Source of the DNA: Erythrobacter sp. 3-20A1M | Lineage (GTDB): Bacteria > Pseudomonadota > Alphaproteobacteria > Sphingomonadales > Sphingomonadaceae | Assembly: GCF_018636735.1 (NCBI RefSeq) | Contig: NZ_CP045200.1 | Coordinates: 2,634,001 to 2,698,000, forward strand | Reading direction: 5' to 3' | Length of the DNA: 64,000 bases | Shown here: positions 24,542-59,850 of the stretch, one piece after another | Numbering within the stretch: position 1 is the first letter of the stretch | Layout of the letters: the number at the start of each line of letters is the position of its first letter | The notes under the pieces: model-generated | The model's database searches: none | What the model saw: only the letters and a program-made list of their open reading frames with translations | Told to the model about the DNA's origin: nothing | Made by a program: the position numbers and the translations under genes

Positions 24542-24946
24542 TCAGCGTATGGAGCCAATTGCCTCTTCGCAGGTCTGCGCACATCGCCGACAGTGCTCAG
24601 CACAAATCCCACAATGCTCATGCTTACTCGCGTGCTTCTCGCACTCTTCCGCGCATATGGTGCAGGCGGTTTGGCACGCTCTAATCGCCGCAATGATGAC
24701 CTCTTCGTTGCTGCCACTGCGGCGAGTTCCAACAGAGCCCGCAGCGAAGCACAAATCGGCGCAGTCGAGGTTCAGGCGAATGCACTGCCGCAGCATCTCA
24801 ACCTGGTCTTCGGCAGTACATGCATCGGCACACGAGATGCACATCTGCGCACAAGAATAGAACTCCTGAGTGGCGCGAATGAGTACCTCGTTGGTGCTCC
24901 CTTGAACTGACGGGTGGGCGGCAATCATGGTGTTCATCTGCGACAT
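24542..24946 (-). CDS. Four-helix-bundle copper-storage-like protein (Csp/DUF326)
   Basis: A 134-residue cytosolic protein with 16 cysteines spaced along four predicted helices: 'CAQMCISCADAC', 'CIRLNLDCADLC', 'CQTACTICAEEC' and 'CGICAEHCRRCAQTC'. This matches Csp-type proteins that hold many Cu(I) ions inside a helix bundle. No export signal is seen, so it should store or buffer cytosolic copper, like Csp3. The ATG at 24946 has a strong AAAGGAGG. It is transcribed alone, divergent from the ferritin-like gene. Confidence 0.93.
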   Translation of the reverse strand: MSQMNTMIAAHPSVQGSTNEVLIRATQEFYSCAQMCISCADACTAEDQVEMLRQCIRLNLDCADLCFAAGSVGTRRSGSNEEVIIAAIRACQTACTICAEECEKHASKHEHCGICAEHCRRCAQTCEEAIGSIR

Positions 24947-27811: not shown

Positions 27812-28816
27812 TCATGAGACCACGCTCAGACCCAGCTTTTCGATTTCCCAGCCATCGCCCCTGCGTCGAAGGCGGTAGGCGCCATGCTCCGCGCCGAGAT
27901 TGCCGTATGTGGCACCGCCAAACCCTGCACAGAAACCGCGATTGCCTGAACAATCGATCCGCGCATCGATGAACATGGCTTTCTCGCCATTCCGGGCAAG
28001 GATTACGCCACCGTCGTTCCATGAACAATCGGCGTCAGAGAAGAGTTGTCCGAACCTGCGTGAAAGATTTGCGCGCGTAGTGTCACTGGACTCGCGCAGA
28101 CAGAAATGCGCGTGCATGTCGCCTTCGCGCCTTTCGTAATCCTGCAGCACATAGGTGAACATCGCTTCCCGTGGATCAGCAGTTCCCTCGATGGTTCGCT
28201 TGGGCCAGCGCCTCCCGTCCCAATGCTCGTCGAATGCCTGTGAGAGCAGCATGTCGTCCGTGGATGGACCAGGCGGTGGAGGTGCTGGCGGATCGGGGAT
28301 GCCGTTGGGTTTGGCCGGATCGTATTTCGCGATTTCATAGATCTGTACAGCAGGCCCGGCGCAATCGGCAGGTAGTTCGTCGCCGGTCAAAGCCACCAGG
28401 TCGGCATCGCGAGGATAGAACCCACCGCTGCCGCGAACCATCTCGCCTTCGCGGATACGCAGACCAGAGGTGTAGTTGTTCACCAGCCAGTCGCTCTCGT
28501 CGAGGGTCGCGACCTGCACGTCCTTGTCCGCCCACAGGATGAGCGAGCGTTGTCCAGGCGAATGTTCCAGATAAATGCATGACCCGGCGCGGGTGATCCG
28601 CCCGGAAACAAGCGCCTCCATGCGACTGGTGCCACGATCCTTCAAGATCACCGGCAGCGGAGATTCTACCGAGCCGGGCTGTTCGCCAATGTCAGGTGCA
28701 TCCACCGGAGCGCATGCGGGGGATGCCACTGCAAGCAGCATACATGCCAATAGAGGACTGCGTCTTTGACGGGTGTGCCTCACCGTGTAATTTACCAAGG
28801 TGGGTTGCAATCTCAT
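27812..28816 (-). CDS. Exported protein with two-Cys domain, last gene of island operon
   Basis: A 334-residue protein. The n-region RHTRQRR and hydrophobic LLACMLLAVASPAC suggest a (lipo)protein signal. Residues about 70-160 carry the shared two-Cys domain ('GRITRAGSCIYLE' with the second Cys in 'ELPADCAGPAVQIYEI', 71 residues apart). A Pro-rich linker leads to a separate C-terminal domain with five Cys ('HAHFCLRESSDTTR', 'SDADCSWNDGGVI', 'IDCSGNRGFCAGF'). No known family is recognised. It lies 18 bp after its upstream neighbour, the loosest junction in this operon. Confidence 0.75.
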   Translation of the reverse strand: MRLQPTLVNYTVRHTRQRRSPLLACMLLAVASPACAPVDAPDIGEQPGSVESPLPVILKDRGTSRMEALVSGRITRAGSCIYLEHSPGQRSLILWADKDVQVATLDESDWLVNNYTSGLRIREGEMVRGSGGFYPRDADLVALTGDELPADCAGPAVQIYEIAKYDPAKPNGIPDPPAPPPPGPSTDDMLLSQAFDEHWDGRRWPKRTIEGTADPREAMFTYVLQDYERREGDMHAHFCLRESSDTTRANLSRRFGQLFSDADCSWNDGGVILARNGEKAMFIDARIDCSGNRGFCAGFGGATYGNLGAEHGAYRLRRRGDGWEIEKLGLSVVS

Positions 28817-28834
28817 CCTGTCACAACCTCTCCG

Positions 28835-29668
28835 TCAAAATCCCCAAAATCGATTGCAATCGATCGGATCGAGCGCGGGATTGCGCAGGCGGCGGTCCGC
28901 TTCGCGCTTCGCCTGCTCGACTGCGCATTTGTTGGCGCGTTCCACTATCTGCTTTTCAGTCGCACCGCTACGTTCGCCGTAACGCCGAAGGGCGGATGTA
29001 AATCGATCCGGCGGATTGAATGGATTGCTGACGGTCGTGACACTCACAACTTTGTGGTTCCCGCAGGCTTCAGCCAAAGCCGGATCGGGTTCGGACGGTT
29101 CGCCAAACCAGCCTGTTTCGGCGGTCAGCCCGACACGCACGCTGCCCATCCTATTTGGCTCGTAGCGCGAACCGAACGCAAGGTATCCTTCCTCGTCCAT
29201 GACAAGCGCGGTGGAGTATGGAAAAAAGACCAGCGGATCATCCGCACCTTCACGGTCTAGGAAAAAGCATCCGTCGCGAAGCACGATCGTGTGCTGGCTA
29301 CCGAGATCAAGGACCGCACCGCGAGGCTCCGCGGCCTGCGGAAATGCACGGATATAATAGGACAGTTCGGGCGGAACGGCGAATCGTTCAAGCACAGGTT
29401 TGCTGTTGACCGGATCGGGCGGCAATTTCTCACCGAGATCGGAAAACGGCGGCGGAAGTGGTGCTTCGAGGATCGTGAGGCGGCCGCTTTGCTCCTGCGT
29501 GGCACCCGTCGGGATCGGCGCAGGCTCGACGCAGGCCGCCTCAGCATTGCCGGATTGCGTGACGATCCGTCCTTTATCGTCAAAGGTGCAAAGCAGTTGC
29601 TCCGGCCCGGATGGCGAACATGCCGCGATCAGCGCGGCGACAGGCAGTAACAGGACAACCCGTATCAT
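28835..29668 (-). CDS. Lipoprotein with two-Cys domain
   Basis: A 277-residue lipoprotein (lipobox IAAC). A variable Pro-rich region precedes the shared domain: 'HTIVLRDGCFFLDREGADDPLVFFPYSTALVMDEEGYLAFGSRYE', with its partner in 'DPALAEACGNHKVVSVTTV'. The two Cys are 67 residues apart and presumably form a disulphide. The charged C-terminal helix ('ERANKCAVEQAKREADRRLRNPALDPIDCNRF') is matched by the decayed remnant at 39.1 kb. Family unknown to me. It overlaps its upstream neighbour by 4 bp. Confidence 0.75.
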   Translation of the reverse strand: MIRVVLLLPVAALIAACSPSGPEQLLCTFDDKGRIVTQSGNAEAACVEPAPIPTGATQEQSGRLTILEAPLPPPFSDLGEKLPPDPVNSKPVLERFAVPPELSYYIRAFPQAAEPRGAVLDLGSQHTIVLRDGCFFLDREGADDPLVFFPYSTALVMDEEGYLAFGSRYEPNRMGSVRVGLTAETGWFGEPSEPDPALAEACGNHKVVSVTTVSNPFNPPDRFTSALRRYGERSGATEKQIVERANKCAVEQAKREADRRLRNPALDPIDCNRFWGF

Positions 29669-30501
29669 CGCGCCCTGTCCCCCGTCAGAACATGCTCGCC
29701 GCCCGCGATAATCAGTTCGCCATTGGGCCCGATTAGATAGTGCGGATCATCGCGCATCAATTCGGCAAAGGCGGTATCCAGCGCGGCATGGTCTTCGCGG
29801 CAGTTTTGCTCCGTGGTGGCAATCTCGTCGTCCACCGACAAGCGATTAGCATCGGCCCGATGGGTTCCGAACAATGTCGCGCAAGACGCCAAACCCTGCC
29901 ACGTCTCCGCCGCGAACTGCACATGCCGGTCACCGGGGCTGGAGCTAGCTGTTTGGCCGTTGATTGCGCGGATGGTCCATTTCGTGCCGACAAGGTCCTG
30001 GGGAACCACGCCGGAAACGGGGATACGCATCGGATCGGGGGAACGATCCTGCCCGTTTGCCGTGTCGCTACGCACCAGTTCGATAACATGATCGCGCGAG
30101 CGCAAGCGTAAATTTTCGCCGGATAGCCGGACTTGCGGATAGGCTCGGAACAGCTCTGCCACGGCGTTCTCCCATCTGCCGACAGGGTCGAGGCACGCCA
30201 TCGCATCGCCGCCCCAGCTATGCACCGCGATGCGCCCCTGAGCATAGAGAGCCGGACCGCCAAAGCTGTTGCAGCCCACCGATCCACCTGCCGCGTCCGT
30301 GGAGAGAGCAAGGTAGGGTTCGCTGCCCGAAACCGGCAGGGTTTCGCCATCGATGCTGGTAATGCGCCACCTGCCGGTGATATCCTCCAGCGTAGGAACT
30401 GTTTCCCCGGCAGTTTCTGCAGCGACATTACCGGTCTGCTGGTCAGCCTGCGGGTTGCAGGCGGCGAGCGCCATGAACAGCAGAATGACGGGAAGTCTCA
30501 T
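29665..30501 (-). CDS. Lipoprotein with two META-like domains
   Basis: A 278-residue lipoprotein (MALAAC). The first META/HslJ-like domain starts 'EDITGRWRITSIDGETLPVSGSEPYLALS' and includes 'GSVGCNSFGG' and 'AMACLDPVGRWENAVAELF', both typical of META folds. The second starts 'DLVGTKWTIRAINGQTA' with 'GLASCATLFG' and 'TEQNCREDHAALDTAFAELM'. Each has the usual pair of Cys. META domains are small beta-rich modules in secreted and outer-membrane proteins, with unclear function. It overlaps both neighbours by 4 bp. Confidence 0.8.
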   Translation of the reverse strand: MRLPVILLFMALAACNPQADQQTGNVAAETAGETVPTLEDITGRWRITSIDGETLPVSGSEPYLALSTDAAGGSVGCNSFGGPALYAQGRIAVHSWGGDAMACLDPVGRWENAVAELFRAYPQVRLSGENLRLRSRDHVIELVRSDTANGQDRSPDPMRIPVSGVVPQDLVGTKWTIRAINGQTASSSPGDRHVQFAAETWQGLASCATLFGTHRADANRLSVDDEIATTEQNCREDHAALDTAFAELMRDDPHYLIGPNGELIIAGGEHVLTGDRAR

Positions 30502-32444
30502 CGCAGAATATCCCTCAGGGTCACATCGCCTTCAGGGAGCGGCACAGTGTATTCGACGTCGGTCGGGCAGCTGCTGGTGCAGATGACATAGGGGAATGTA
30601 TTCGCGTCGATCCATTGCGCGACCTCGGCAACCGCAGGTTCGGTGATCGGCGAGTCGTCCGGCAGGGGGTTGGGGCATGCAATTGCCGCGCTGCCCCAGA
30701 CATTGTTTCCCGCATCCGGCTGCCTGCTCATCGGTGTGCAGCCATCGAAATATGCCACGACTCCGCCATAACCGTTCGGATTGCCGAAATTCGTGCTGCT
30801 ATCATATTCGATCCAGAGCCGGGTGGGATCGGTAAGTTCCCTGTCCCCGATGCGAGTTACGAAATAGCGGCGAACGTCAGGCTGTCGGGCAAGCTCGAAT
30901 GGCTGCCATTGGCCGAACTCCGCCATTTGCTGATCGACACGAAATGTCATCGCTCGCGCATCTTCCACTGTCATGCCAGCGAAACTCGCCGAGCCTAGCA
31001 CATTCGCGCCTTCGACCGCTTCGGCAAGCCTGCCATCAACGATCCGCATCAGTGGCAAAGTCATCTGCAAAACGCGCGTGTCGAAGGACGGCGGATCGCC
31101 TTCCGTCAGGCGCCCCGCCAGATAGCCCGTGCGGCTTGCCAGCAGCAGTATTTCCTCATCCGGCTCGGGCGTGATGACGCTGGAGCGGCTCTTGCCCTCC
31201 AGCGGTGGCATCCGCACGATCAACAGGTCGCCGGTCTGATTACCGCCTCGCCAGCCCTCGCGCACGCGGTATAGGTAATCGAGCGACAAGCCATCGCCGC
31301 GATCGACGGGGCGGATACCTTCGTGCACCGCGCGCACGACGATGGGCGCAATGGCGAGGTTCTCGGCAAGACCGCGTGCCTCTGTGCCCGGAGCAGGCAC
31401 CAGCCCCGCCTCCTGTGCCTGTGCGTAGTGCCACGCGGTCATTCCGGCGAAAGCAAGCGCGCGTGGATTGGCGGTGCTCTCCACGCCGGGCATTCCCTCG
31501 CCGCCGAGCCCGATGGCCCTCAGCGCCAGCCCGACGCGCTGTTCGGCAGGCATCGCTGCCGCCTTTGCGGCAAGCTCTACAGCCCAGGGATACGGCGCGA
31601 TGGCCTCGGCATCGACGCCAAGTTCCGGGTAACGCGCGGCAGGCAGGAGCGTCGCCCGCTCTCTGCCGATCCTAACCGTCATGCGGGTCTCGACCGGATC
31701 GGCGCGGTAGCTGGCTTCGGCACCGAGCTTCGCCAGCTCGTCGCCCAGCGTCTGGACACGGCAGCGCTCACTCATCCGGTAGTATGAGCCACCCGTGCGC
31801 ACTTCCCCGTCGCGGTCGGTGAACCAGCCATTGGCCGCAAAATCGCAGTTTTCCGCATCGACTTTGTATTCTGGCCCAAAGGTGACGCGGGTCATCTCCT
31901 CGCCGCGATAGGGTCTGCCGCGCCTGTCCGCGAGCAACCATTCACCGCGCACGAATTCGTCGCGCGGGACGGTCGCCGCCACATCGACTTTGGCGAACAC
32001 CCATGTCTCGCCGCCTCGCTCGATCCGGATGGTGTCGCCATCGACCGGTACGATGCGCAATTCGCCTGCATCGAAGGGGGCGAGCCGCGCCTGCGGTTGG
32101 CAATGCTCCGCAAGGCTCGTGTAATCGTCCAATGCGTAACGCCCGTCGCCCAGATCGCGCAACTGGCCCTGTGTCAGTTCGCAACCGCTGCCAAAGGAGA
32201 ACATCGGGCTCCAGATGGTGAGCCGGTCTTTCGGCGAGACGCCCGGGCCGGACACCGGCCGCCACTCGCCATAGAGCGCCTTTACGGCATCGGTCATCGG
32301 TGCGCGCGCCTCCGGTCCGGGAGGAGGTGGCGCAGGAGGCAAAGGCATATCTGCCGGTTCGCGCGAAGGGGCGGAAGTGGCGCAACCGGTCAGCAGCAAT
32401 CCGCTAGCCAGAACTGCACCGAGGGCAGCAAGGTCGATCTTCAC
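30498..32444 (-). CDS. Large lipoprotein with tandem META-like N-terminal regions
   Basis: A 648-residue lipoprotein (lipobox LLTGC) with a Pro-rich linker. Two beta-rich regions begin 'YGEWRPVSGPG' (about residues 58-155) and 'RGEWLLADRRGRPYRG' (about 167-260), each with conserved Cys/Gly spacing like META domains ('FGSGCELTQG', 'DAENCDFAANGWF'). The C-terminal 350 residues are unrecognised, with late Cys in 'YFDGCTPMSRQ' and 'AIACPNPLPDD' and a cluster 'VICTSSCPTDVEY'. The start is GTG at 32444, overlapping the previous stop (GTGA). Exported to a membrane surface; role unknown. Confidence 0.72.
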   Translation of the reverse strand: MKIDLAALGAVLASGLLLTGCATSAPSREPADMPLPPAPPPPGPEARAPMTDAVKALYGEWRPVSGPGVSPKDRLTIWSPMFSFGSGCELTQGQLRDLGDGRYALDDYTSLAEHCQPQARLAPFDAGELRIVPVDGDTIRIERGGETWVFAKVDVAATVPRDEFVRGEWLLADRRGRPYRGEEMTRVTFGPEYKVDAENCDFAANGWFTDRDGEVRTGGSYYRMSERCRVQTLGDELAKLGAEASYRADPVETRMTVRIGRERATLLPAARYPELGVDAEAIAPYPWAVELAAKAAAMPAEQRVGLALRAIGLGGEGMPGVESTANPRALAFAGMTAWHYAQAQEAGLVPAPGTEARGLAENLAIAPIVVRAVHEGIRPVDRGDGLSLDYLYRVREGWRGGNQTGDLLIVRMPPLEGKSRSSVITPEPDEEILLLASRTGYLAGRLTEGDPPSFDTRVLQMTLPLMRIVDGRLAEAVEGANVLGSASFAGMTVEDARAMTFRVDQQMAEFGQWQPFELARQPDVRRYFVTRIGDRELTDPTRLWIEYDSSTNFGNPNGYGGVVAYFDGCTPMSRQPDAGNNVWGSAAIACPNPLPDDSPITEPAVAEVAQWIDANTFPYVICTSSCPTDVEYTVPLPEGDVTLRDILR

Positions 32445-33664
32445 GGCAAGGTGCCCTGACGGTTGCCAGCGCCGCCGTTGAGCAGCCAGATGTCACGCTC
32501 GATCCGCTGCATGGTGGCGAAGACGGCGGCTTCGTCGGTCCCATCCACCTGCGGCAGCCGATCGGCAGTGCGATCGAGCGGGGCGACGCGCGACACGAAG
32601 GACTGGCTGGCCAGGGCGTGTGGATCGCCCGCTACTTCGACCGCAATGAGGCGCGGAGTGCCCGTCGCCTGCTGCACATCGCGCACCGAGCGAGTGAATG
32701 CCTGCGCGACTTCATAGCCGAGCCCGGTACCATAGCGCTGCATCGGGGAGAGCTTTGCGCGCAGGAATTCCGCTGCGCCGTGATGCGGATCGCCGATCCG
32801 GTCACGCAGGCTCTGGGCTAGATAGTCATCTGCTTTTTCGAGCCACGGCAAGGTCTGCTCATGCGGTGACGGTCGCACCTCTTCGATGAAATTACCGCGC
32901 GCATAATAAGCCGCGCGGATCGTCGCCCCGGCGGCACGCAGATCGCGCTCGACCCGCACAGGATCGCTGCCCGGTGTGAGGTAGAGCACATCCTGAGCCT
33001 GTGCCGCTTCTGGCGCAGCAGCGGCCATGCGCACCGACCAGAGCCAGAAATCATCGTCTGACAAGGTCACCGGCACAAAGCCGAAGGCGGGATGGTTGGG
33101 CGCGGTGGTTTTGCCATCGCTCATCGTGAGCCTGTTGAGCACCCGCCCTTCCGCATCGCGCAAGACGAGGTAGAAGCGCCCGGTGTCGGCCATGAGCGCA
33201 GGCGGGCTGCAACTGGTCATGGGCGGCGATGGTGGCGGGGGACTGCCGGGAGCGGTCGCCTGCGGAAAAAGTAAAGTGGGCCGTTCCTCCGTATAGCTGA
33301 ACGGCGCGACCTGCCCGGTTTCGCTGGTAAAGTGCTGCAAGGGGGCGTTGAAAATCCGCTCCTTGTCCGGCGAAAAGGTCAGCGGACTACCAAACACGGT
33401 AAAGCGGTCGGCGCTGTTGCCTTTGAAGCGGGCGATCGCGCGCAAGGTAATGATGCCGGTGGGCCGCGCATCCATTGCCCGGGTTCCGTCATCTTCGACC
33501 AGCACCAGATCGGCATAGGTCGCAGCGGCCAGCATCTCTTTCGCGAAATACTGGCCACTGGCATAGCCGACCTCTTCAGGGCGCTGCGCGTAAACGCAGG
33601 CCAGCGCAGTTTGCGGCAACGCCAGACCGGCAAGTGCGACGGACGCCAGAACTGAGCGCATCAT
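32441..33664 (-). CDS. Exported protein with NTR/TIMP-like N-terminal region
   Basis: A 407-residue protein with a signal peptide ending ALPQTALA and a mature start at CVYAQRPEE. 'ATYADLVLVEDDGT', 'GIITLRAIARFKGNSADRFTVFGSPLTF', a paired Cys region 'PMTSCSPPALM' and 'GRFYLVLRDAEG' follow the order seen in netrin/TIMP-like domains (N-terminal Cys, 'A-D-V' strand, 'LKG' strand, Cys, 'YLV' strand). The match is by eye and tentative. The remaining 200 residues are Ala-rich and helical. It overlaps both neighbours by 4 bp. A protease-inhibitor or surface-binding role is speculation supported only by the nearby serpin. Confidence 0.65.
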   Translation of the reverse strand: MMRSVLASVALAGLALPQTALACVYAQRPEEVGYASGQYFAKEMLAAATYADLVLVEDDGTRAMDARPTGIITLRAIARFKGNSADRFTVFGSPLTFSPDKERIFNAPLQHFTSETGQVAPFSYTEERPTLLFPQATAPGSPPPPSPPMTSCSPPALMADTGRFYLVLRDAEGRVLNRLTMSDGKTTAPNHPAFGFVPVTLSDDDFWLWSVRMAAAAPEAAQAQDVLYLTPGSDPVRVERDLRAAGATIRAAYYARGNFIEEVRPSPHEQTLPWLEKADDYLAQSLRDRIGDPHHGAAEFLRAKLSPMQRYGTGLGYEVAQAFTRSVRDVQQATGTPRLIAVEVAGDPHALASQSFVSRVAPLDRTADRLPQVDGTDEAAVFATMQRIERDIWLLNGGAGNRQGTLP

Positions 33665-36027
33665 TGCTTTTCTCCTGATTGTTCGAGGCCCAATGCGCGC
33701 TGGATCGGGGCGATCCTTTCCCGCAATTCGTCGAGCGGGATCGGTTCCGGATAATTCGTGACGGGAAGCGCCATCCCGTCGACGTCGATCTGCGACGGGG
33801 CCATCCAGCTGACCGCAACATACCAGTCCCCGTCGCTGCGCGCCGCGCCTTCGCCGCCCTGAACATAGGCGGCATGGGTGTAGAGCGCGTCGCTCAGATG
33901 CAGAATCCAGCGCGATCCCGGTTCCAGCGAAGTCGGCAAGCCGGGCAGCAACGACGGTTCATCATTGCTTTGCCCATAGCGGGTCACGCCCGCCTCATCG
34001 GTCCGTTCGCCCGAAGCAAGCCGCTGTCGCAATTCCTCGCCCGGCCTGGCATCGCCCTTCAAGACCTCTACCACACGCCAGCGCACCGTGGAGGCAAAGC
34101 CGTCGCCGCCCGCATCGGCGAGGTCGATGGCAACCGGTTCGGCCACGACGATATCGGTGGCGGTGAGAGCGCGCTTCTCGATCGTCTGGCGCCCGTTCAT
34201 GTCTTCCAGTGCTTCGATGGGATCGAAGCCGGCGGCGCGCAATGTCTGGATTTCCTGTAGGGTATAGCCGCTGGCGATCAGCCAGTGCGTCTGCTGGAGC
34301 GAGCCGGCCCTGGACGGTTTGCGTGCCACCCAGATGCTGGAGTTGTGATCGGTCGGCGAAGGCTCGGGCCGCATGATAGGCGTTTCTTCCACCAGCGCGC
34401 GGATAGTGGCGAAGTCAGGATGCGCTTCCAGCGGATACCAGATCGCTTCGGGATCGCGGCGCAGCGGAATATCCTGCCGGTAGATCGCGCTCTGATTGTC
34501 CGCCATGATCCGCACCAATGGCGGAAAGGTGATCTTGCCCGCCACCGCTGCTTGCGAGAGCGCGGCAAGGTCTGCGGGATAGAGGTCAACAAAGCCGCCG
34601 ATTTCCTCGATACTTACCCGCGCGTCCAGCCCGGCCGCCGCGATCTGCGCGGCAATGTCCGCTCGCGCGGCTTCCAGCGCTGTTCCGCCTTGCGGCACGA
34701 CCTGCCCGGTGACGAAGGGGCGCAGTGTCTCCGGCACCAGTTCGTCTCTGGTCAGCACATCGGTGTGGAACATATGCGCGGCGCCCTGATCCTCGTTGAC
34801 GTAGATGCTGGCGATCACATCGCCATGTTCGGCGAGCGCGTGCGCCCGCCACGCCTTCAGTTCGGCCACCCGTGCCATATCGGCGGCATAGTCTGCTTCG
34901 GCAGCCGCGCGGCTGCCGAGTTCCTGCGTGCGGCCAGCGATGGCGGCATCGCGTCGTTGCTTGTCCCACACTTCGCGCGGGACGATGCCGCGCACGACGC
35001 GATAGGGGCCGGGACAGCTATCCGCGCCCACAACATCATTCGGCGGCGCAACTTCGCCAGGTTGCAGGCCCATCAGCACCACATCGCTGTCAGCATAGAC
35101 CTTTGCGCCGGAAAAACGGTTCATCACTGCTACCTTGCCGGAATCGGTCAGGTCGAGCGCCATGCTCTGTTCCCAGACCGCAATCCTCGGCTCCTCACCT
35201 TCGGGCGAGAGCCACAGGCAACCATCGCGCAATTCGAGGCGTGCAGGCACGTCTGGAACGCCGACCAATGTGCGCGCCATCCCGTCAGTGCGGTAGGCGA
35301 ACTGAGGGAAACCCTTAACCCGCGCATCGCCGGGTGGAACGGGCGGCGCAGCGATCGGAAACGGATCGGGTTCCTCGAACACCACGAAGTCGGGCAGTTC
35401 AATCTCGCCGCGTGCCGCCGCCTGCCGGATCGGGTCGGCACTCTGGCCCAGCCTGACCTCGATCTTGCCGGTGGCTTCGTTCCCGCCCATGCCGAACCAG
35501 TTCACGCTCAGCGCTTGAAGATCGCGCATCAGCTGGTCCTGTGCCGCGCGCAGTTCGGTGAGGCTCGGTCCGGGGCGATCGACCGGGACATAAAGCGGAT
35601 CGCTGGTGTATTTCGCCAGTGTCGACGCCGCATCGCGGGTGAAGGCGACCATCACGCCATAGGTCGGGCGATGCTGGATCCAGAGCCCTGCAAAGGTGTC
35701 GCCTTCCTTTTCGTGAAGCGTTTGCGCCAGCAGACCGAGGGAATCGTCCGGCGCGGGTGGCGGAGGCGGTGGCCCCGGCTCGGTGCGCGGGCCGATGGCG
35801 CCGCGGTTCTGGATTTCCATCCGCCGCTCTGCCTCTTCCACGCTGACGCAATAAGCGCGCGCATACCAGGCGTTCTCGGAGAACTCGCCTTTGTAATTCT
35901 CGATGGCCTCGATCTCTTCCGCCGTCAGGTTAGGGCAGGTTTCGGTGAGCGGTTTTTGCTCTTGCGCGAAGGCGGGCGATGACAGGGCCAGCGCCATCGC
36001 GCTCGCGCCAAAGAGATTTCGGATCAT
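33661..36027 (-). CDS. Large multidomain exported protein of island operon
   Basis: A 788-residue protein with a standard signal peptide (SSPAFAQ). In order: a short Cys pair (TCPNLTAEE..AYCVSVEE); an alpha/beta region with 'SLTELRAAQDQLMRDLQAL' and 'IELPDFVVFEE'; the shared two-Cys domain ('RLELRDGCLWL' to 'GADSCPGPYRVV', 67 residues between Cys); a second copy of the alpha/beta region ('GGTALEAARADIAAQIAAAGL', 'GKITFPPLVRIM'); and a C-terminal NTR/TIMP-like stretch ('ATDIVVAEPVAIDL', 'VRWRVVEVLKGDARPGEEL', 'GSRWILHLSD'). No enzyme motif is seen. It seems to combine modules found singly in neighbouring genes. Confidence 0.72.
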   Translation of the reverse strand: MIRNLFGASAMALALSSPAFAQEQKPLTETCPNLTAEEIEAIENYKGEFSENAWYARAYCVSVEEAERRMEIQNRGAIGPRTEPGPPPPPPAPDDSLGLLAQTLHEKEGDTFAGLWIQHRPTYGVMVAFTRDAASTLAKYTSDPLYVPVDRPGPSLTELRAAQDQLMRDLQALSVNWFGMGGNEATGKIEVRLGQSADPIRQAAARGEIELPDFVVFEEPDPFPIAAPPVPPGDARVKGFPQFAYRTDGMARTLVGVPDVPARLELRDGCLWLSPEGEEPRIAVWEQSMALDLTDSGKVAVMNRFSGAKVYADSDVVLMGLQPGEVAPPNDVVGADSCPGPYRVVRGIVPREVWDKQRRDAAIAGRTQELGSRAAAEADYAADMARVAELKAWRAHALAEHGDVIASIYVNEDQGAAHMFHTDVLTRDELVPETLRPFVTGQVVPQGGTALEAARADIAAQIAAAGLDARVSIEEIGGFVDLYPADLAALSQAAVAGKITFPPLVRIMADNQSAIYRQDIPLRRDPEAIWYPLEAHPDFATIRALVEETPIMRPEPSPTDHNSSIWVARKPSRAGSLQQTHWLIASGYTLQEIQTLRAAGFDPIEALEDMNGRQTIEKRALTATDIVVAEPVAIDLADAGGDGFASTVRWRVVEVLKGDARPGEELRQRLASGERTDEAGVTRYGQSNDEPSLLPGLPTSLEPGSRWILHLSDALYTHAAYVQGGEGAARSDGDWYVAVSWMAPSQIDVDGMALPVTNYPEPIPLDELRERIAPIQRALGLEQSGEKQ

Positions 36028-37298
36028 TCGGATTTCTCCACGGGTGTCGGGTCGGATATGCGGCCGAAGAAGATCAGTGCGCCGCTCGCACGGTCGCGGA
36101 TGGTCAGGAGGAAGGGCCGGTCGACGATCATGCGCGGCAGATCGTCTGGCAGGCGGCGGGAGCCGGTAACGACGATCTTTACCGTTGTTACCGCCGCCGC
36201 TTCGGTACCTTTCTCGTCCACCCGCAGGAAAGTGGCGTGGGCCACATCGTCGATCGCGAGCGGAGCATTGGCCATCGCGCTAAAATCGGCGCAGCTTCCG
36301 TCAAAGACGCAGGTCATTCCCGCCGCAATCAGCGCGGTCTTTACGCTGCCATCGAAGCGCGCCTCGAAACGCGGCAAGCGCAGCAGAATATTGCGTTCTT
36401 CAATCGAGCCGAGATCGAACTTGCCGTCGCTGCCCTGCATCGAAAGATCAAACGATCCGGCATTCAGATCCCGTTCCCACCGGCGCAGGGTAGCCCCGTC
36501 CTTCGGCAGGAACACCTCCATCGTGAAGCGCCCGTCCTTGCCATAGGGCAATTGCACCGCCTGCCCGTCGCGCGTTTCGCGATAGGCCATCGGCGCGATC
36601 CGCTCCATCATGTAGATCGGCATTTTGGTGCCATCGCCGCGCGTGAATTCGCCCGTGGAGCCATCCTCGAACGGCACCGACCAGTCGGCCTTGAACCACA
36701 CCGCATTGGTGAGCACGGCAGCGGTCAGATCGTTGAACCCGCTCGCATCGACAATCTTCGTGATCCGCTCGCGGGTCTGTTCGCTTACCCAGCCATTGAT
36801 CGTGTCGGCAGAGCCTGCCGGATCGCCGCCGAAATCGACCTGCCGCGCAGTAGCCCCGAAACCTTTTTTCGCCGCGTGCAGATAATCCGGCGCGAAGGAG
36901 AGGTTGTTCGAGAGCCACAGCGCATTGGCGACCGACAGCGCCACCTTGTTATCGCCCGTGCGCGTCAGGAAACGGTCGTAATCCTTCACCAGCAGTTCGG
37001 CCCGGCCTGCCGCGTTCCAGCCCAGCAGATCGCGCATCTCCGCCTCGGTCTGCCCGCGCGCGCCGGGAAGCGCCATGCCCAGGCCCTCGCTCAGCGAGAG
37101 CGGCGAGATGAAGAGATTGTCGTTCGGCTCTGCAGCCTCGGCCAGTTTCGGATAAAGCCGCGCGGCAAGCCGTGCCTGCCCTGCCGTGATATCGTGCGGG
37201 ATGGCCTCGGAAGATGCCATTGTCCCAATCTGCGTTGGCAACGTCGCACAGCCGGCTGCAAGCCCCAGCGTTGCCAGCGAGAGGAAAATGCGTTTCAT
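36024..37298 (-). CDS. Lipoprotein serpin (serine-protease inhibitor)
   Basis: A 424-residue serpin. The ATG at 37298 gives a lipobox LAAGC (Cys17), so it should be membrane-tethered. Serpin landmarks: 'NDNLFISPLSLSEGLGMALPGARGQT' (helix B shutter), 'LTNAVWFKADWSVPF', and the hinge 'DEKGTEAAAVTTV' (from residue 361). C-terminal 'DRPFLLTIRDRASGALIFFGRISDPT' is the serpin signature. The hinge has Gly-Thr and small residues at P15-P9, as required for inhibition. Aligned with antitrypsin, P1 is about Thr378, but a longer P' side (GSRRLPDD) leaves Arg possible. Bacterial serpins are uncommon; the target is unknown. Confidence 0.92.
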   Translation of the reverse strand: MKRIFLSLATLGLAAGCATLPTQIGTMASSEAIPHDITAGQARLAARLYPKLAEAAEPNDNLFISPLSLSEGLGMALPGARGQTEAEMRDLLGWNAAGRAELLVKDYDRFLTRTGDNKVALSVANALWLSNNLSFAPDYLHAAKKGFGATARQVDFGGDPAGSADTINGWVSEQTRERITKIVDASGFNDLTAAVLTNAVWFKADWSVPFEDGSTGEFTRGDGTKMPIYMMERIAPMAYRETRDGQAVQLPYGKDGRFTMEVFLPKDGATLRRWERDLNAGSFDLSMQGSDGKFDLGSIEERNILLRLPRFEARFDGSVKTALIAAGMTCVFDGSCADFSAMANAPLAIDDVAHATFLRVDEKGTEAAAVTTVKIVVTGSRRLPDDLPRMIVDRPFLLTIRDRASGALIFFGRISDPTPVEKSE

Positions 37299-38662
37299 CG
37301 ATCCTGCTCCAGAAATTCGACCAGCCATTCGGGCAAGGGGCGCAAATGGCCTTCAGGCGTTCGGCACAGTCCAAAGCTGAGACTGCTGCCGGGCGGACAT
37401 TCGGATGGGTCCATCACCGGACGCGGCGGCATTTCAACCATCATCGCGCCTGTTATCGGCGGTAAGAGGATGCCGTCCGGGCTGGTCTGCCGATTGGCCT
37501 CGCCTCGCGCGTCGAGCCAATCGAGCGCACGCTCTGCCTGCCGGGCATCGAGGCCGTAACTGTTCTCCAGACTGCGGATCGCATTTGCGCGATCAGTCAC
37601 CTTATCCTGTGCCGCGCGTGCGGCGGCGCTTTCCATGCCTTCGACCTTGATGACCTTGCCCGGCCCGCAGGCGTCGTGGATGGGATCGACCAGCTCGGGT
37701 ATCGTCACCTCGTTGATGGAACCCTGAAACTCGACCTCCTCGCCCACGCGCGCATAGCCGGGTTGCTCGCCGCTGCCATAGGCAAGATACCCTGCGCTAT
37801 CGACGAACAGCTTCGCGCCGAACGGGAACAATACCAGCGCATCGTCCCTGTCCGCGGCGCGGAAGCAGCCGTCCTTCAGCACAATCGTTGCCCGGCTATT
37901 GATGGCGTTGAGCGCGCCTGCAGGGCGATCGTGCCGGGGGAAGACACGCAGGTAGGGCGCGACTTCGTCCTGAACAGCCTGATCCTGCGCAGCCGGGCGT
38001 GGCGGATTGACCAGAGGCACCATCGGCGTCGCGTGAAAGATCAGCTCAACCGGTTCGGGAATGGTCACGCCTTTGCGTTTCACCAGCGCCCGGAATTCGG
38101 CTTCCGAGACGCTGATCTGGGCGGTGACGACCTGTGTGGCAACACCGGTCGACTGGATCACGCGATCATCGCGAAACGTATCCCAAATGAATTCGGCGGC
38201 CGCCATCAGCTCTTGCTGCGACCAGCGCACGGTTTCCCCGCGGAAGGTGGAATTCTTGCTGTACTTGCGCAGCGTGGCAGGGCCATCGCGCAGAAATTCG
38301 AAGACGACGCCAAGTTCGCCTTCATTGTCATAATGCAGGGTCTGAAAGTTCCCACGTTCTTCCCGGCGCAGTCGTTCAGCCAGTGCCTGCACTTCGTCGC
38401 TCACGCTGTTCTGGTAATCGGCAACGCGCATGAATTCCGCATCGGCAGCATCCTGCTCCGCCGTGCGGGGCGCGGGCGGAGACGGCTCTACGGGATCGAA
38501 AGAGGCAGGAGGCGCGGACAGGATTGTCGCAAAGCCGCTTTCGCTGACTTCAGCGCGAAACGGCAACCCGTTGGATGATGGTGGCGCTTCCTTCTCCGGC
38601 GATGCACACGCGGCGGGGCAGGCCAGAGCGATTGCCGCCAGCGGTAAAACTAGGTGCTTCAT
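37295..38662 (-). CDS. Exported protein with two-Cys domain
   Basis: A 455-residue probable lipoprotein (LACPAAC). A Pro-rich linker is followed by an alpha/beta region related to the one in the 788-residue protein ('WSQQELMAAAEFIWDTF', 'AQISVSEAEFRALVKRKGVTIPEPVELIF'). The shared domain 'RATIVLKDGCFRA' to 'PIHDACGPGKVIKV' follows, with 65 residues between Cys. The C-terminal helical tail ends in a Cys pair ('PSECPPGSSLSFGLCRTPEG'). Family not recognised. It overlaps the serpin gene downstream and the small lipoprotein gene upstream by 4 bp each. Confidence 0.75.
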   Translation of the reverse strand: MKHLVLPLAAIALACPAACASPEKEAPPSSNGLPFRAEVSESGFATILSAPPASFDPVEPSPPAPRTAEQDAADAEFMRVADYQNSVSDEVQALAERLRREERGNFQTLHYDNEGELGVVFEFLRDGPATLRKYSKNSTFRGETVRWSQQELMAAAEFIWDTFRDDRVIQSTGVATQVVTAQISVSEAEFRALVKRKGVTIPEPVELIFHATPMVPLVNPPRPAAQDQAVQDEVAPYLRVFPRHDRPAGALNAINSRATIVLKDGCFRAADRDDALVLFPFGAKLFVDSAGYLAYGSGEQPGYARVGEEVEFQGSINEVTIPELVDPIHDACGPGKVIKVEGMESAAARAAQDKVTDRANAIRSLENSYGLDARQAERALDWLDARGEANRQTSPDGILLPPITGAMMVEMPPRPVMDPSECPPGSSLSFGLCRTPEGHLRPLPEWLVEFLEQDR

Positions 38663-39081
38663 TCCGATATCGGCTCCATATGGTGCAGCCGCATAACATC
38701 GCGTTTTGGGCAGGCTGCGGGGATCGTAACTCCATAGAAACGCTCGATATCATGAATCGGCCACCCTCGCCCGGCGTCACGCAGGACCGCCGCGCCTCCG
38801 CTAATGCGCTCACCGAAGCGAATGCTGTTGCCGGTCGCCGGATCGAACACGCCATCGCCGGTAGGCAATAGGGTGACTCCCTGGTCGAACAGAACAGTGC
38901 TGTTGCTGCGGCCGGTAACGATGCAGCCGTCGATACTTTCGATCGAGCCGCCAAACAGCGCCTGACCGCCAAAGGCATCGCGGTCGATAGTGATTGGCTG
39001 CGCTTCGATCGCGGCCGTTGCACAGCCAGAAAGCGCAACGCCAATGGCCAGCATAACAGCCGGTTTCCCTGTCCTGTTCAC
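38659..39081 (-). CDS. Small two-Cys-domain lipoprotein
   Basis: A 140-residue lipoprotein consisting of little more than the shared domain. Lipobox ALSGC is followed by 'GSIESIDGCIVTGRSNSTVLFDQGV' and 'FGERISGG', with the second Cys in 'TIPAACPKRDVMRL', 70 residues after the first. This short form shows that the domain can stand alone. GTG at 39081 is preferred because GGAGAG lies at correct spacing and the start overlaps the preceding stop (GTGA), as at the other junctions; a longer frame from 39144 would bury the signal peptide. Confidence 0.75.
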   Translation of the reverse strand: MNRTGKPAVMLAIGVALSGCATAAIEAQPITIDRDAFGGQALFGGSIESIDGCIVTGRSNSTVLFDQGVTLLPTGDGVFDPATGNSIRFGERISGGAAVLRDAGRGWPIHDIERFYGVTIPAACPKRDVMRLHHMEPISE

Positions 39082-39421
39082 GACTGGCTCTCCGATCTTG
39101 GAGCTACCGGCTGTCGAGGCATGATCGGCATGACCTGCGCGCAAAGCCGGGGTTCGGCCGCGCTGCCCCGCAGGCGCTGATCCGCCATGATCCGCTCTTG
39201 ATCAACGAGGCAGGCGTTCGCCTGTTCATTGCCTCTGCATCGATGAGGCCGTGTTGCCGCGCATATTGCTTCACCGCGAACCAGTCGCCGCCATATCCTG
39301 CCGCTTGATCGAGCGATTTGACGAGAATGACGCGGTGATTGCCGCAAGCCTCGATCAATTCGGCAGGCGGATCGGCCACTACGCTGCGGTAGCGGACACG
39401 CAACGACCATGTTGTTTGCAC
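39078..39421 (-). pseudogene. Decayed C-terminal remnant of a two-Cys-domain paralogue
   Basis: Two adjacent frames together match the end of the 277-residue protein at 28.8 kb. Frame 39421-39104 gives 'DPPAELIEACGNHRVILVKSLD' (compare DPALAEACGNHKVVSVTTV). After a shift near 39230, the frame ending at 39078 gives 'EQANACLVDQERIMADQRLR' (compare ERANKCAVEQAKREADRRLR). The first half of the domain with its DGC motif is missing, so this is a truncated and frameshifted copy. Its stop still overlaps the next GTG by 4 bp, preserving the original operon junction. Confidence 0.55.
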
Positions 39422-39837
39422 AAGCGCTCCAGCTCATTCACCCATGCCCGGCTCTCAAGGTAGGTGCTCGTACCGATGTCTGCATCGGTAGGAACGACAT
39501 CATCGGTCAAACTAAGGTTACGCGAGGACAATTCGAGGTTATCTTCTCCAGAGAACCATTGAATGAGCCGATTGCCTCCGCGCCAGATGACCCATACCAT
39601 ATCTGTGTCTCTGCTTCCGCGCGTCATGCCGATCACACAGGCTTGAGAGTCCCCCCCTAGCGCTTCTCGGCGCAGGTAGGAGCCAACAACTTCTTGGTAG
39701 CGGGAGAATTGCGGCCGCGTCTTGAGATCGAATGGCGTATAATGCGCAAGACGCGACGCTACAGGTGGGTTTTCTTCAACACATCCGGTCAAGAAGATTA
39801 TCGATGCTGCCACGATATAAGACCCAATTTGGCGCAT
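39379..39837 (-). CDS. Small lipoprotein, divergent two-Cys domain, first gene of island operon
   Basis: A 152-residue lipoprotein (lipobox FLTGC). 'GGDSQACVIGMTRGSRDTDMVWVIWRGG' corresponds to the DGC half of the shared domain and 'ELERLCKQHGRCVSATAA' to the second half, with 72 residues between the two Cys. Similarity to the other members is weaker, but the Cys spacing and order are kept. It is the promoter-proximal gene of the minus-strand operon. About 40 bases of its 3' end overlap the decayed remnant. Confidence 0.65.
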   Translation of the reverse strand: MRQIGSYIVAASIIFLTGCVEENPPVASRLAHYTPFDLKTRPQFSRYQEVVGSYLRREALGGDSQACVIGMTRGSRDTDMVWVIWRGGNRLIQWFSGEDNLELSSRNLSLTDDVVPTDADIGTSTYLESRAWVNELERLCKQHGRCVSATAA

Positions 39838-45903: not shown

Positions 45904-46120
45904 GATCGCCGCCCCCTTTGCGATAAGGCGGTGGGTGGTTCAACTCGCTTTGAAAGTAATCTGAAATTCCGCGAGCAAACCTGCCCCGAGCCCCATTCGG
46001 CCTGTGGTTCGCACTGGTCTGAGAGCGCACGGCGGGCGGAGTTTCCCTCGATCCCGGCATGGTTTATGCGATCATGACAAGGGGGGCGGCAACACCGCGC
46101 TCGAATGGGGGAGAGAGACA

Positions 46121-47752
46121 GTGCGTGGGATCAGGGCAATATCCGCGTGGATCGCGGCGGCGGTCATGGCGGTGCCGCTCTCCGCGCAAACCGACGAAGC
46201 CTTGCCGCATCTGGAGAACCGCGACGGTCGGCACGCGCTGATCGTGGATGGCCGGCCTTTCACTATCCTCGGCGGCCAGGTGAACAATTCGAGCAATTAC
46301 GCGGCCGCCTTGCCGCAGGTCTGGCCGGTGCTCGATCGCATTCACGCCAACACGGTCGCCGTCCCCATCGCATGGGAGCAGATCGAGCCGGAGGAGGGGC
46401 GGTTCGACTTCTCGTTCCTGCAAACCCTGCTGGAAGAGGCGCGCACGCACGACAAACGCATCGTGCTGTTGTGGTTCGCGACCTGGAAGAACACCTCGCC
46501 CGGCTATACCCCGGCCTGGGTCAAGCTCGACAATGCGCGCTTCCCACGGATGAAGACCCGCGACGGGGGCGATAACTATGCCCTCTCGCCGATGTTCGAG
46601 ACGACGCGCGAAGCGGACAAGCGGGCATTCGTGCGGCTGATGACCTATCTACGTGATCACGATCCGCAAAACACGGTCATCATGGTCCAACCCGAGAACG
46701 AAGTGGGCAGCTATCGCAACCCGCGCGACTTCGGAGCGCGGGCGCAGGCGCTGTTCGAGGGGGCGGTGCCAGCCGAACTGGTTACCGGTTTGGGGAAAGT
46801 GCGCGGAACGTGGGCAGAAGTGTTCGGCGACCGGGCGGACCGCGCCTTCAACACCTGGTACACCGCGCGCTATATCGGCGACATCGCGGCGGCGGGGAAG
46901 GCGGTGAAGCCGCTGCCGATGTACGTCAACGCCGCGCTTTCCGATCCCTTCAACCCGCCCGATCCGATGGGCGTCGCGAGTGGCGGGCCGCAGCAGGACG
47001 TGCTCGATATCTGGAAGATCGCCGCGCCCGCGATCGATTTTGCCGCGCCCGATATTTACGACCGGAGCAGCCGGAACGTGGTCGCCTATCTCGATGCCTA
47101 TGCGCGGCCCGACAACGCTCTGTTCATCCCGGAGATCGGCAATGCGCGCGAATATGCGCGGTACTTCTACACCGCGATGGGGAAGGGGGCGATCGGCTTC
47201 ACCCCGTTCGGTATGGATGCGACCGGCTATTCCAACTTCCCGCTGGGGGCGAAGGCGCTGGACGAGCAGACGCTGTACGCCTTCGCGCGCAAATACGCCG
47301 CGATCGAGGCGCTGGGCGGCGCGTGGGCGCGGCTGGCCTTCACCCGGCCCACCTGGGGTGTCGCCAAGCCCGACGACGGCTCGGCGCAGTCGAAGACGTT
47401 CGGCAAATGGCAGGTGACGGCCAGCTACGGCGAATGGCAATTCGGGTTGAAGGAATGGACCTGGTTGAAGGCGGAACCGCCCGCCTGGGCCGATGAACCG
47501 GTCGGCGGCGCGCTGGTCGTGCAGCTTTCGCAGGACGAGTTCCTGGTTACCGGCGACCATGTGCGGATCACCTTCGACCGGGCCGAAAGCGGGCCGGAGA
47601 ACGGCATGGTGGTGCGGGTGGAGGAGGGGCGGTTCGACGCCGCCGGCGATTGGGTGATGGACCGGGTCTGGAACGGCGACCAGACCGATTACGGCCTCAA
47701 TTTCACCGATCGGCCGGTGTGGCTGAAGGTGACGATGGGCGCGTGGAAATGA
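46121..47752 (+). CDS. Secreted glycoside hydrolase (beta-galactosidase type, GH35/42-like with DUF5597 region)
   Basis: A 543-residue secreted enzyme. GTG at 46121 with GGGAGAG gives a signal peptide ending PLSAQ. The TIM-barrel opens '[23 protein letters not shown]' and '[23 protein letters not shown]', typical of GH35/GH42 beta-galactosidases. The likely acid/base Glu is in '[10 protein letters not shown]' and the nucleophile Glu in '[11 protein letters not shown]'. The C-terminal beta domain (DUF5597-like) includes '[12 protein letters not shown]'-like sequence near the end. It probably removes galactosyl or related sugars from plant polysaccharide. Its 3' end overlaps the convergent SGNH gene by 50 bp. 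Confidence 0.85.
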
Positions 47753-48572
47753 GCGCCGGTCGATCGGCTAGCGCGCGCTCGATCGCGGCGAGAGCGAGCG
47801 GTTTCATCACGGCATAGCCCGCCGCGTTGGGGTGCACCCCGTCGCTCGACAGGCCCGGCCGCATCGCGCCCGCCGGGGTCGCCATCGCCGCGAAATAATC
47901 GACATAGGTGAAGCCGTTGTCGGCGGCGTAGGATTTCAGCCAGGCGTTCATCTCGCGAATGACCGGCACCGGCTGCTTGGTTCGAGCCCACGGGAACGCA
48001 CCGGCTGGCGGGATCGAGGCCAGGATGACGGCGATACCGTGCGCCCGCGCCAGTTCCGCCATGGAGCGGATATTGCCCTGCACGGTCTCGATCGTCGCCG
48101 CGCCGGTGTTGCCCGCGATGTCGTTCGTCCCCGCCATGATATGTACCGCCTGGGGATGGAGATCGATCACGTCCTGGCGGAAGCGGACCAGCATTTGCGG
48201 CGTGGTCTGCCCGCTGATGCCGCGATCCACGCGGCCATCCTCGAACAGGGCGGGTGCCAGGTTGATCCAGTTATCGGTGATCGAATCGCCCATGAAGACG
48301 ACGCGGACCGGCGCGCCGCTCTCTCTCAGCTGCGCATTGGCAGCGCGATAGCGGCACAGCTGGCCGAAATCGCGGGTCAGCATGTGCAGGTTCCACATCT
48401 GCCATTCTGCACCCTGTGGCACAGGATGACGGGGGCAGGGGTCGGCCACGATCCCCGCCGGATCATCGGCGTAAGGATCGCCCGGGATAGTCGTCTGGGC
48501 GGCTGCGGACGTAGCGGCGAAAAGGGTGAGGCCCGCGACGATCGCCATGCGCCATGTCCAGTGCCCGCTCAT
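47703..48572 (-). CDS. Secreted SGNH/GDSL hydrolase
   Basis: A 289-residue protein with a signal peptide ending TSAAAQ. SGNH motifs: block I '[13 protein letters not shown]' (Ser nucleophile), block II 'RGISGQTT' (Gly), block III '[12 protein letters not shown]' (Asn), block V '[12 protein letters not shown]' (Asp/His). Such enzymes deacetylate carbohydrates or cleave lipid esters. Placed against a glycoside hydrolase, it may act as a carbohydrate esterase. The C-terminal 17 residues overlap the opposite gene. Confidence 0.92.
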
Positions 48573-48688
48573 CTTCCCTCCCGCGTGGACGCGCCGAAGC
48601 GGACCATGCCCCGCGCCTTGACCGTAGCGATAGGATTTCGGGGGACGAATGCCTACCCGAATGCGCGCTTTCTACACCGGAGAGGATA

Positions 48689-49213
48689 TTACAGCGGACG
48701 CCGGCCCAGCACGTTGCCGGGCGAGCTGTAGCGGCACACCATGATCTCCTCGCGCTCGCCGCGCGCCATGCCGCATCCGACCTTGCGGGTCTGCTGCCAG
48801 ACGAGCTGCGTGTAATGGCTCACATCCTGGACCCGGCCCGTCCTGCTGTTGGCCGGGAAGACGCCTTTGACGAATGCCTGCTTCTCCGCGATCCACAGGC
48901 CGACCATCGACTCCGGCGCATAGGCACCCACGGTCCCGCCCCAGATATTCTCGCCTTCCAGCGGCTCTCCGGGGCGATTGGGCGAGTGTTCGAAACGGCC
49001 GGTCCGGGCCAGATGTTCGGCCCATTCTTGCGCATTGTCGGCCAGGTCGGGGTCCCAGGCCAAGGGCGAGACGCCCATCTGCGCGCGCTCTTCGTTATGC
49101 ACGGCGAGCACGCGCTGATCGAAATCGCCGAGCCGAGTCTGTACGCCCGTTGAAAGTGTGAGGACCGCACCCAGAAGTGCGGACTTTGCCAGAAGCTTGC
49201 CGAACTGTCGCAT
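48689..49213 (-). CDS. CAP-domain (SCP/PR-1-like) secreted protein
   Basis: A 174-residue protein with a signal peptide and CAP domain. 'VLAVHNEERAQMGVSPLAWDPDLADNAQEWAEHLARTGRFEHSP' supplies the His/Glu pair, 'GENIW' is the CAP signature, and 'VSHYTQLVWQQTRKVGCGMA' and 'MVCRYSSPGNVLGRRP' complete the fold. Bacterial CAP proteins are of uncertain function, some linked to lipid or polysaccharide binding. It is monocistronic, about 115 bp from either neighbour. Confidence 0.92.
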   Translation of the reverse strand: MRQFGKLLAKSALLGAVLTLSTGVQTRLGDFDQRVLAVHNEERAQMGVSPLAWDPDLADNAQEWAEHLARTGRFEHSPNRPGEPLEGENIWGGTVGAYAPESMVGLWIAEKQAFVKGVFPANSRTGRVQDVSHYTQLVWQQTRKVGCGMARGEREEIMVCRYSSPGNVLGRRPL

Positions 49214-49328
49214 GGTCTTTCCCCGCTACTTGCGAGGAATTCTGCCAGTCGGCCCTGAAGTGAGGGTTCAGAGGAACGCTTAAGGGGATTTAACCATTCC
49301 GCCCTGTCGCGGTTCTCTGGATGGTCCG

Positions 49329-52560: not shown

Positions 52561-52612
52561 AGGACGCGCCGCCGGGCTGGTACGTACCCGCCCGGCGGCC
52601 TAGCCTGACCCG

Positions 52613-59693: not shown

Positions 59694-59782
59694 GCCTCTC
59701 GCCCCCGCGACTGCATCCTTATTGCAACACCGTGGGTGTAACTATGGCGTAACGCTCTTGCAAACCAAACTTGGGGGGATTA

Positions 59783-59814: not shown

Positions 59815-59820
59815 AAATAA

Positions 59821-59834: not shown

Positions 59835-59850
59835 TGGGGAGGAGGACCTG

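Follow-up and report, generated by a model that had tools for sequence, protein, structure and literature searches.

A putative mobile operon of Erythrobacter sp. 3-20A1M combining a serpin with propeptide-like exported proteins: a candidate envelope-anchored array of protease inhibitors

In the 64,000-nucleotide stretch of the Erythrobacter sp. 3-20A1M genome analyzed in this work (contig NZ_CP045200.1, positions 2,634,001 to 2,698,000; hereafter called the window), a gene cluster occupies the minus strand from 39.8 down to 27.8 kb in the order g1, remnant, g2, g3, serpin, g5, g6, g7, g8, g9, and g10. We propose, with a probability of roughly 0.57, that this locus is a horizontally moving operon encoding an envelope-anchored array of putative protease inhibitors. 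The proposal concerns above all a module, here called B, which is almost certainly homologous to the propeptides of secreted chymotrypsin-like (S1) proteases, and a serpin encoded between the two genes carrying it. The host genome has 3.12 Mb in a single contig. Within the cluster, 4-bp overlaps were found at seven of the eight junctions from g2 to g10, in agreement with the first-pass annotation of this DNA, which had been made from the sequence without database searches and had reported such overlaps for most junctions. The central genes and their parts, all on the minus strand, are as follows (aa, amino acids; AF2, AlphaFold2 model).

37295-38662, minus: g3, 455 aa; module B, then domain A
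38027-38395, minus: g3 module B (residues 90-212), S1-protease propeptide-like by AF2 model and Foldseek
37628-37915, minus: g3 domain A (residues 250-345), Cys266/Cys332
36024-37298, minus: serpin, likely envelope-anchored; PF00079, hinge EKGTEAAAV, predicted P1 Thr
33661-36027, minus: g5, 788 aa, exported (signal peptidase I type); pro-like helix, B1, A, B2-like, and C-terminal domain (AF2, Foldseek)
35806-35874, minus: g5 helix (residues 52-74), matching the N-terminal helix of S1-protease propeptides, weak alone (independent E-value 0.17)
35368-35736, minus: g5 module B1 (residues 98-220), by AF2 model, Foldseek, and profile matches
34978-35265, minus: g5 domain A (residues 255-350), Cys270/Cys338
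34498-34866, minus: g5 B2 (residues 388-510), strand/helix order nearly as in B1 (AF2 model); sequence test not significant
33673-34170, minus: g5 C-terminal domain (residues 620-785), probable source of NTR/TIMP fold matches; no Cys

Module B and the propeptides of S1 proteases

Module B, which the first-pass annotation had overlooked, precedes domain A in both g3 and g5, where it follows the pattern 'F..L.....v.FxRDAAATLAKYT.DP.F....g.s..EL'. The models of g3 and g5 B1 share one predicted topology (strand-strand-helix-strand-helix-strand-strand-helix-strand), from which g5 B2 departs only slightly. In the g3 model the module has a predicted local distance difference test (pLDDT) score of 84-98 (blocks of ten, residues 91-210). 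When the models were compared with PDB using Foldseek, chains of the alpha-lytic protease pro region took all seven top places for g3 (E 7e-5 to 4e-4, probability 1.0) and seven of the top eight for g5; both models thus reproduce the pro-region fold with a probability of 1.0 and a template modelling (TM) score to the target of 0.49-0.60.

Sequence comparisons bridge the same gap. A hidden Markov model (HMM) of module B, with no protease in its training set, found the propeptide of L112 (E 5e-17), a 529-codon frame with a GDSGGP catalytic domain from the family of Luteimonas, together with two stand-alone exported B proteins of that family, L111 (213-codon frame) and L113 (199). The second-round HMM, supplemented with L111-L113 and L043, reached the propeptides of L126, L119, and L124 in the family of the window's host (E 3e-5 to 3e-4), that of L107 from the Luteimonas family (E 1e-4), and, weakly, that of L120 (0.006), while the propeptides of L121, L122, L123, L127, and L128 were not found at E 1. 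In the opposite direction, an HMM of ten S1-protease propeptides recovered g5 with E 8.4e-12 (best of 2850 shuffles, 0.27), as well as L111 (9e-24), L043 (5e-11), and L113 (4e-10). L112 owed its discovery to B and was therefore left out in a repeat of the test, in which g5 was matched with E 1.3e-9, or 1e-10 when L107 was also removed, the best shuffle reaching 1 in both cases.

Profile-profile comparison of the S1-protease propeptides with module B gave E 5.8e-10 (1.1e-5 without L112 and L107). The S1-protease propeptides are themselves related to the alpha-lytic pro region, as shown by their comparison with 12 classical pro regions (2.9e-7; 4e-6 without the same two sequences), while the direct comparison of B with the classical pro regions is weaker (score 23.5, against 18.9 for the best of 60 column shuffles and 12.6 for the reversed control). 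The fold matches and sequence bridges together therefore identify B, with very high confidence, as an S1-protease propeptide that has diverged and stands without its protease. The g5 B2 segment may be a second pro-like domain, judging by its model topology only, since its hhalign E-values (0.024 to B and 0.16 to S1 propeptides) are not significant.

Compared with the alpha-lytic pro region (PF02983; PDB 2pro/3pro/4pro), module B is alike in fold and, via the S1-protease propeptides, in profile homology; it differs in lying below Pfam detection, in not being attached to a protease, and in its fusion to domain A in exported proteins. PF02983 had no match in g3, g5, or any of the eight A3 members, and the B profile retrieved no convincing relative among PDB sequences. 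The proteins of the window have no trypsin-family match; in the L112 relative, the propeptide lies N-terminal to the S1 catalytic domain. PF02983 matched 15 of the 60 genomes in the family of Luteimonas sp. BDR2-5 (nine over the cut-off), and none of 190 genomes of the class nor of four carriers, a weak negative, as the control matched nowhere either. The exported propeptide-like proteins of the Luteimonas family are located at L111:1396-2034 and L113:1384-1980, and the L111 genome (G813) has nine PF02983 matches.

The serpin

The serpin matches PF00079 over its full length (E 2.3e-85, 287.5 bits against a cut-off of 27). Its hinge, EKGTEAAAV, fits at eight of nine positions the inhibitory motif ExGTEAAAA as given in a passage of a published account (PMC8233489), and we predict from the sequence that the protein is of the inhibitory type. 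The predicted P1 residue, counted by eye from the hinge, is the Thr of VVTGS (VVT before the cut, GS after it). Alpha-lytic protease likewise cleaves after small residues. The reactive loop, VKI[VI]V[TV][GA][SA]R, is kept in the compared cluster serpins with the exception of that of ANT-B3C2 (L073/L075).

Serpins were found in 13 of 249 genomes of the family, and genes with domain A or module B (A/B genes) lie within 1.5 kb at five of the 15 serpin loci; the linkage is real but not universal. Outside the operon, Sphingomonas lenta (L058) has a serpin paired with a B+A lipoprotein gene, the two overlapping by 4 bp. The second serpin of the host genome (L088; G000:C1:1043917-1044972) has no A/B gene within 1.5 kb. 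In its full length and inhibitory hinge, the cluster serpin resembles other bacterial serpins (PF00079), from which it differs by recurring in an operon with propeptide-like exported proteins.

Distribution and mobility of the cluster

Several Erythrobacteraceae and a plasmid carry the cluster with its gene order mostly preserved. Two or more HMM-positive A/B genes accompany a serpin at 11 distinct loci (L050, L062, L063, L064, L065, L068, L069, L070 (=L133), L071, L132, and L073 (=L134)). L069 belongs to the window's species: it comes from the metagenome-assembled genome of Erythrobacter sp. ECS31B5, reaches from g1 to g8, and encodes proteins 99-100% identical to those of the window. At L073, the serpin is of another type and on the other strand. 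L072 and L131 combine a serpin with one HMM-positive gene, and L066, L074, and L026 are parts of the cluster without serpin. The fullest order, seen in L050 and L133, is BA - g2 - g3 - A143 - serpin - g5 - g6 - g7 - g8 - g9 - g10; the other loci keep it as far as they reach, or have members missing. With g9 as the query, matches were obtained in 19 of 149 genomes of the family.

In Porphyrobacter sp. YT40, the whole cluster lies on plasmid pYT40 (88% DNA identity over 83% of the query), flanked by two tyrosine-recombinase genes. A lone B+A gene is present on five other sphingomonad plasmids (LK11, gentR, YBL2, koreensis, and paucimobilis), with a recombinase gene close by in all three inspected, and also in Luteimonas, a member of another class (L059). 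Genes resembling lptF/lptG and clpS flank a B+A gene on its two sides in L052 and L061, and one such flank was seen in L051 and L056 (gene names assigned by eye); the B+A gene is possibly a core paralogue of the mobile cluster.

Several loci show further peculiarities. The g5 homologue at L026:8210-10569 (G036) is spread over three reading frames and the serpin homologue at L071:9130-10804 (Qipengyuania citrea) over two, through decay or assembly error. Besides L071, Q. citrea CGMCC 1.8703 has a short version of the cluster on another contig (L066), with B+A, g2, and g3 homologues only.

Domain A

The two-cysteine domain that the first-pass annotation had described in six genes and a remnant is referred to here as domain A. 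Apart from g3 and g5, the features concerned are listed below.

39379-39837, minus: g1, 152-aa lipoprotein (LTGC); two Cys at a spacing of 73; outside the detectable domain A family
39104-39421, minus: remnant, C-terminal part of a decayed B+A lipoprotein gene
38659-39081, minus: g2, 140-aa lipoprotein, domain A alone; GTG start (open reading frame opens at TTG 39144)
28835-29668, minus: g9, 277-aa lipoprotein carrying domain A
29024-29317, minus: g9 domain A (residues 118-215), Cys134/Cys202
27812-28816, minus: g10, 334 aa; divergent domain A and a C-terminal part
28322-28621, minus: g10 domain A (residues 66-165), Cys80/Cys152

Each copy was tested with an HMM built from the other copies and homologues of other genomes, the tested copy being left out, against 3300 shuffled decoys; for g1, g2, and g10, a profile-profile comparison that included three unrelated controls was added. 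The family was upheld for g2, g3, g5, g9, g10, and the remnant, while g1 belonged to it in neither comparison. The local expansion of exported two-cysteine proteins noted at first thus stands, with five genes and a remnant. An intact protein of L026 (402 aa) shares 77% identity with the remnant over 60 aa, and a pYT40 protein 64% over 61 aa; g1 has an ortholog in L071 (78%).

The domain A consensus opens with a strand that has DGC[FL] at its end, followed by the hydrophobic strand LVLFP, a hairpin with GYL, R[VI]GE, and a helix; [AS]CG and a last strand complete it. The g3 model shows it as an all-beta unit in which a single helix precedes the second Cys (pLDDT 72-96, blocks of ten, residues 251-350). 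The description of the domain as unrecognised was also confirmed, as scans with Pfam, NCBIfam, PADLOC, and PHROGs gave nothing close to cut-off for either domain A or module B, and no evident fold match to domain A occurs among the best 50 of 281 (g3) and the best 50 of 391 (g5) PDB matches obtained by Foldseek at E 10. A beta-trefoil was considered and rejected as a composition effect: the domain A profile matched only designed beta-trefoils in PDB (best E 0.0056), no single stretch being significant alone. Small lipoproteins with domain A alone are encoded by a 143-aa gene of pYT40 and by open frames in two genomes from the Luteimonas sp. BDR2-5 family, L114 (136 codons, E 1.2e-6; profile-profile E 9e-11) and L115 (160 codons, E 4e-5). 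At least two of 398 genomes were matched in a phylum-wide search, in which at most 11 candidates were scored per genome, so that it has little bearing on absence. We infer that domain A may be a beta module, perhaps held by a putative disulphide, which carries or extends an inhibitor.

Remaining cluster members and chromosomal neighbourhood

32441-33664, minus: g6, 407 aa, exported; two Cys only (23, 152), mature N-terminus probably Cys
30498-32444, minus: g7, 648-aa lipoprotein without family match
29665-30501, minus: g8, 278-aa lipoprotein with two META (HslJ-type) stretches, PF03724

The g5 model gave weak Foldseek matches to agrin NtA and TIMP-1/2 (E 0.01-0.4, aligned range not printed). 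The C-terminal domain of g5 is their likely source, because the g3 model, which has no such domain, gives no NTR/TIMP match among its best 50 of 281 PDB matches. TIMPs have conserved disulphides. The g5 C-terminus has no cysteines and is therefore not a TIMP; it also differs from the NTR/TIMP fold by the lack of a sequence-profile match, and neither its profile nor that of g6 found a convincing relative among PDB sequences. Both Cys of g6 are invariant in seven sequences, and in six of the seven with a readable signal sequence the first directly follows an AxA signal peptidase site (by eye); this N-terminal Cys is reminiscent of that of TIMPs, which we regard as a lead. Relating the C-terminus of g5 to the N-terminus of g6 was tried and dropped, as their comparison was not significant.

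The g8 protein resembles META/HslJ proteins in its two META stretches (PF03724, E 1.6e-30, 105.7 bits against 24) and differs from them in scoring below the cut-off of the HslJ equivalog model (41 against 168 bits). In Novosphingobium marinum, a META-like open reading frame similar to g8 (E 1.6e-5) lies directly after a lone B+A gene (L053:8635-9987). The start of another B+A gene is overlapped by the gene of a 209-aa lipoprotein (L057:998-1627 = L029) showing 36% identity over 56 aa to the C-terminal part of g10.

Scans for sigma-70 promoters and terminators gave no match better than shuffles. Elsewhere in the window, positions 4709-24946 hold a heavy-metal/copper island with an AcrB-type RND pump, CopB, a metal P-type ATPase with YHS and HMBD domains, and a Cys-rich DUF326 protein (24542-24946, minus). 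At positions 46004-63285 there are two tryptophan-halogenase-like flavoproteins (52613-54139, plus, and 56605-58416, minus), near a sugar transporter and a DUF5597 glycosidase, followed by a TonB receptor (59851-63285).

Proposed function and alternative explanations

The best reading of the detached propeptides is that they represent a new, putative variant of inhibitor aimed at foreign S1 proteases. A passage on alpha-lytic protease describes the pro-region junction as lying across the active site of the enzyme until it is cut (PMC2829044), and free propeptide mimics are reported in part of another paper as potent subtilisin inhibitors (PMC6993865). Module B, detached from its protease and placed in lipoproteins and exported proteins, would bind the active site of a mature S1 protease as a propeptide does, and a cut in the low-confidence linker between B and A could perhaps free the C-terminus for that site. 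The serpin, with its small residue at P1, would trap escaping enzyme of the same S1 class, while the NTR-like domain, g6, and the META lipoprotein might broaden the range or anchor the array. The targets might be foreign proteases secreted by predators or competitors among the bacteria, for example by relatives of Lysobacter, which we consider possible but doubtful; the relevant part of a survey connects trypsin-like proteases with the lysis of cell walls (alpha-lytic protease) and, as likely, with predation (Bdellovibrio) (PMC2605481). It is only tentatively that we picture a mobile envelope-bound shield, carried on plasmids and islands, in which detached S1 propeptides, a serpin, and beta-domain proteins oppose the small-residue-cutting proteases of predators or competitors, with domain A as a new inhibitor or display module. 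The first-pass annotation had suggested protease control, with predators or host enzymes as the target. Protease control gains support from the propeptide homology of B, the inhibitory hinge of the serpin, and the NTR/TIMP fold matches of g5; domain A is not evidence for it, because it is without known relative, and the choice of target remains conjecture.

Several observations weigh against the proposed array of inhibitors. Inhibition by g3, g5, and the serpin is a prediction from sequences and models, and the C-terminus of a pro region, which enters the active site, is not free in the B+A proteins unless they are cleaved. The HMM of S1-protease propeptides misses g3, L057, and L058 even at E 50, and its E-values for L055 (42), L062 (2.5), and L051 (0.14) are about at shuffle level; the argument for these proteins is their homology to g5, joined for g3 by its own model. 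A/B genes are missing within 1.5 kb of ten of the 15 serpin loci, and two of these, L129 and L130, whose serpins have a similar loop, lack them up to about 7-9 kb away as well. No relative is known for domain A, the module that occurs most often; the NTR/TIMP match, of unstated range, is weak, and the TIMP cysteines are missing from the g5 C-terminus. Finally, four of 12 carriers have an S1 catalytic match (two of them partial), and some B proteins could serve a protease of their own.

This last point bears on two alternatives. Module B could be a steric chaperone (foldase) for exported proteins or proteases of the cell itself, the array being a folding or quality-control system; the alpha-lytic pro region does speed the folding of its enzyme, according to a passage of PMC2829044. 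Alternatively, the array could shield the cell from proteases that it secretes or keeps in its periplasm, since S1 proteases resembling the catalytic part of L112 occur in 11 of 119 genomes of the window's family, and the propeptides of L119, L124, and L126 fit the second-round B HMM. Carriers were searched with an S1 catalytic profile at E 0.01 (13 handles, corresponding to 12 distinct genomes, as G561 and G798 are one genome), and the matches in four of them would allow self-protection or foldase roles. However, eight of the 12, the window's host included, had no match, and none of the 32 cluster or B+A stretches scanned contained a catalytic domain of the S1 type, the only type covered, which together favours foreign targets. 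The neighbouring serpin of predicted inhibitory type also fits inhibition better than folding, and the presence of the genes on plasmids speaks against the control of resident proteases. We therefore regard a foldase as rather unlikely and control of the cell's own proteases as improbable.

An envelope-stress or metal/redox set, in which the two-cysteine domains and the META lipoprotein g8 would serve outer-membrane homeostasis and the serpin would be incidental, could be seen in the copper/heavy-metal genes next to the cluster and in the lptF/lptG-like and clpS-like neighbours of some B+A genes; but the serpin recurs at the 11 loci, no metal genes are annotated in 42 kb of pYT40, and B is homologous to protease propeptides, which makes such a set quite improbable. 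That domain A merely reflects the composition of secreted proteins, and the cluster an assembly of unrelated ordinary lipoproteins, is hardly credible: g1 does look similar by eye and yet fails every test, but for five genes this reading was refuted by the leave-one-out and shuffle controls, and the gene content is conserved.

The array of putative inhibitors has counterparts in principle. Protease propeptide mimics exist as separate inhibitor genes, as sections of two papers describe (PMC6993865, PMC4089206), and stand-alone propeptide-like inhibitors are known as I9 (yeast proteinase B inhibitor, SUB1-ProM, TgMIC5) and I29 (CTLA-2, crammer). Those inhibitors differ in fold and act on subtilisins or papain-like proteases, whereas module B is of the S1 (chymotrypsin) type and occurs in multidomain proteins of a bacterial operon. 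A literature search at the level of titles, mostly outside subscription journals, yielded no paper on bacterial serpin operons or stand-alone alpha-lytic propeptides. The functions of prokaryotic serpins are called relatively enigmatic in a passage of PMC8233489, and a mobile operon tying a serpin to homologues of protease propeptides would offer a direct, testable setting in which to address them. It also suggests that chymotrypsin-type propeptides, like the subtilisin and papain-like ones, may have been turned into free inhibitors.

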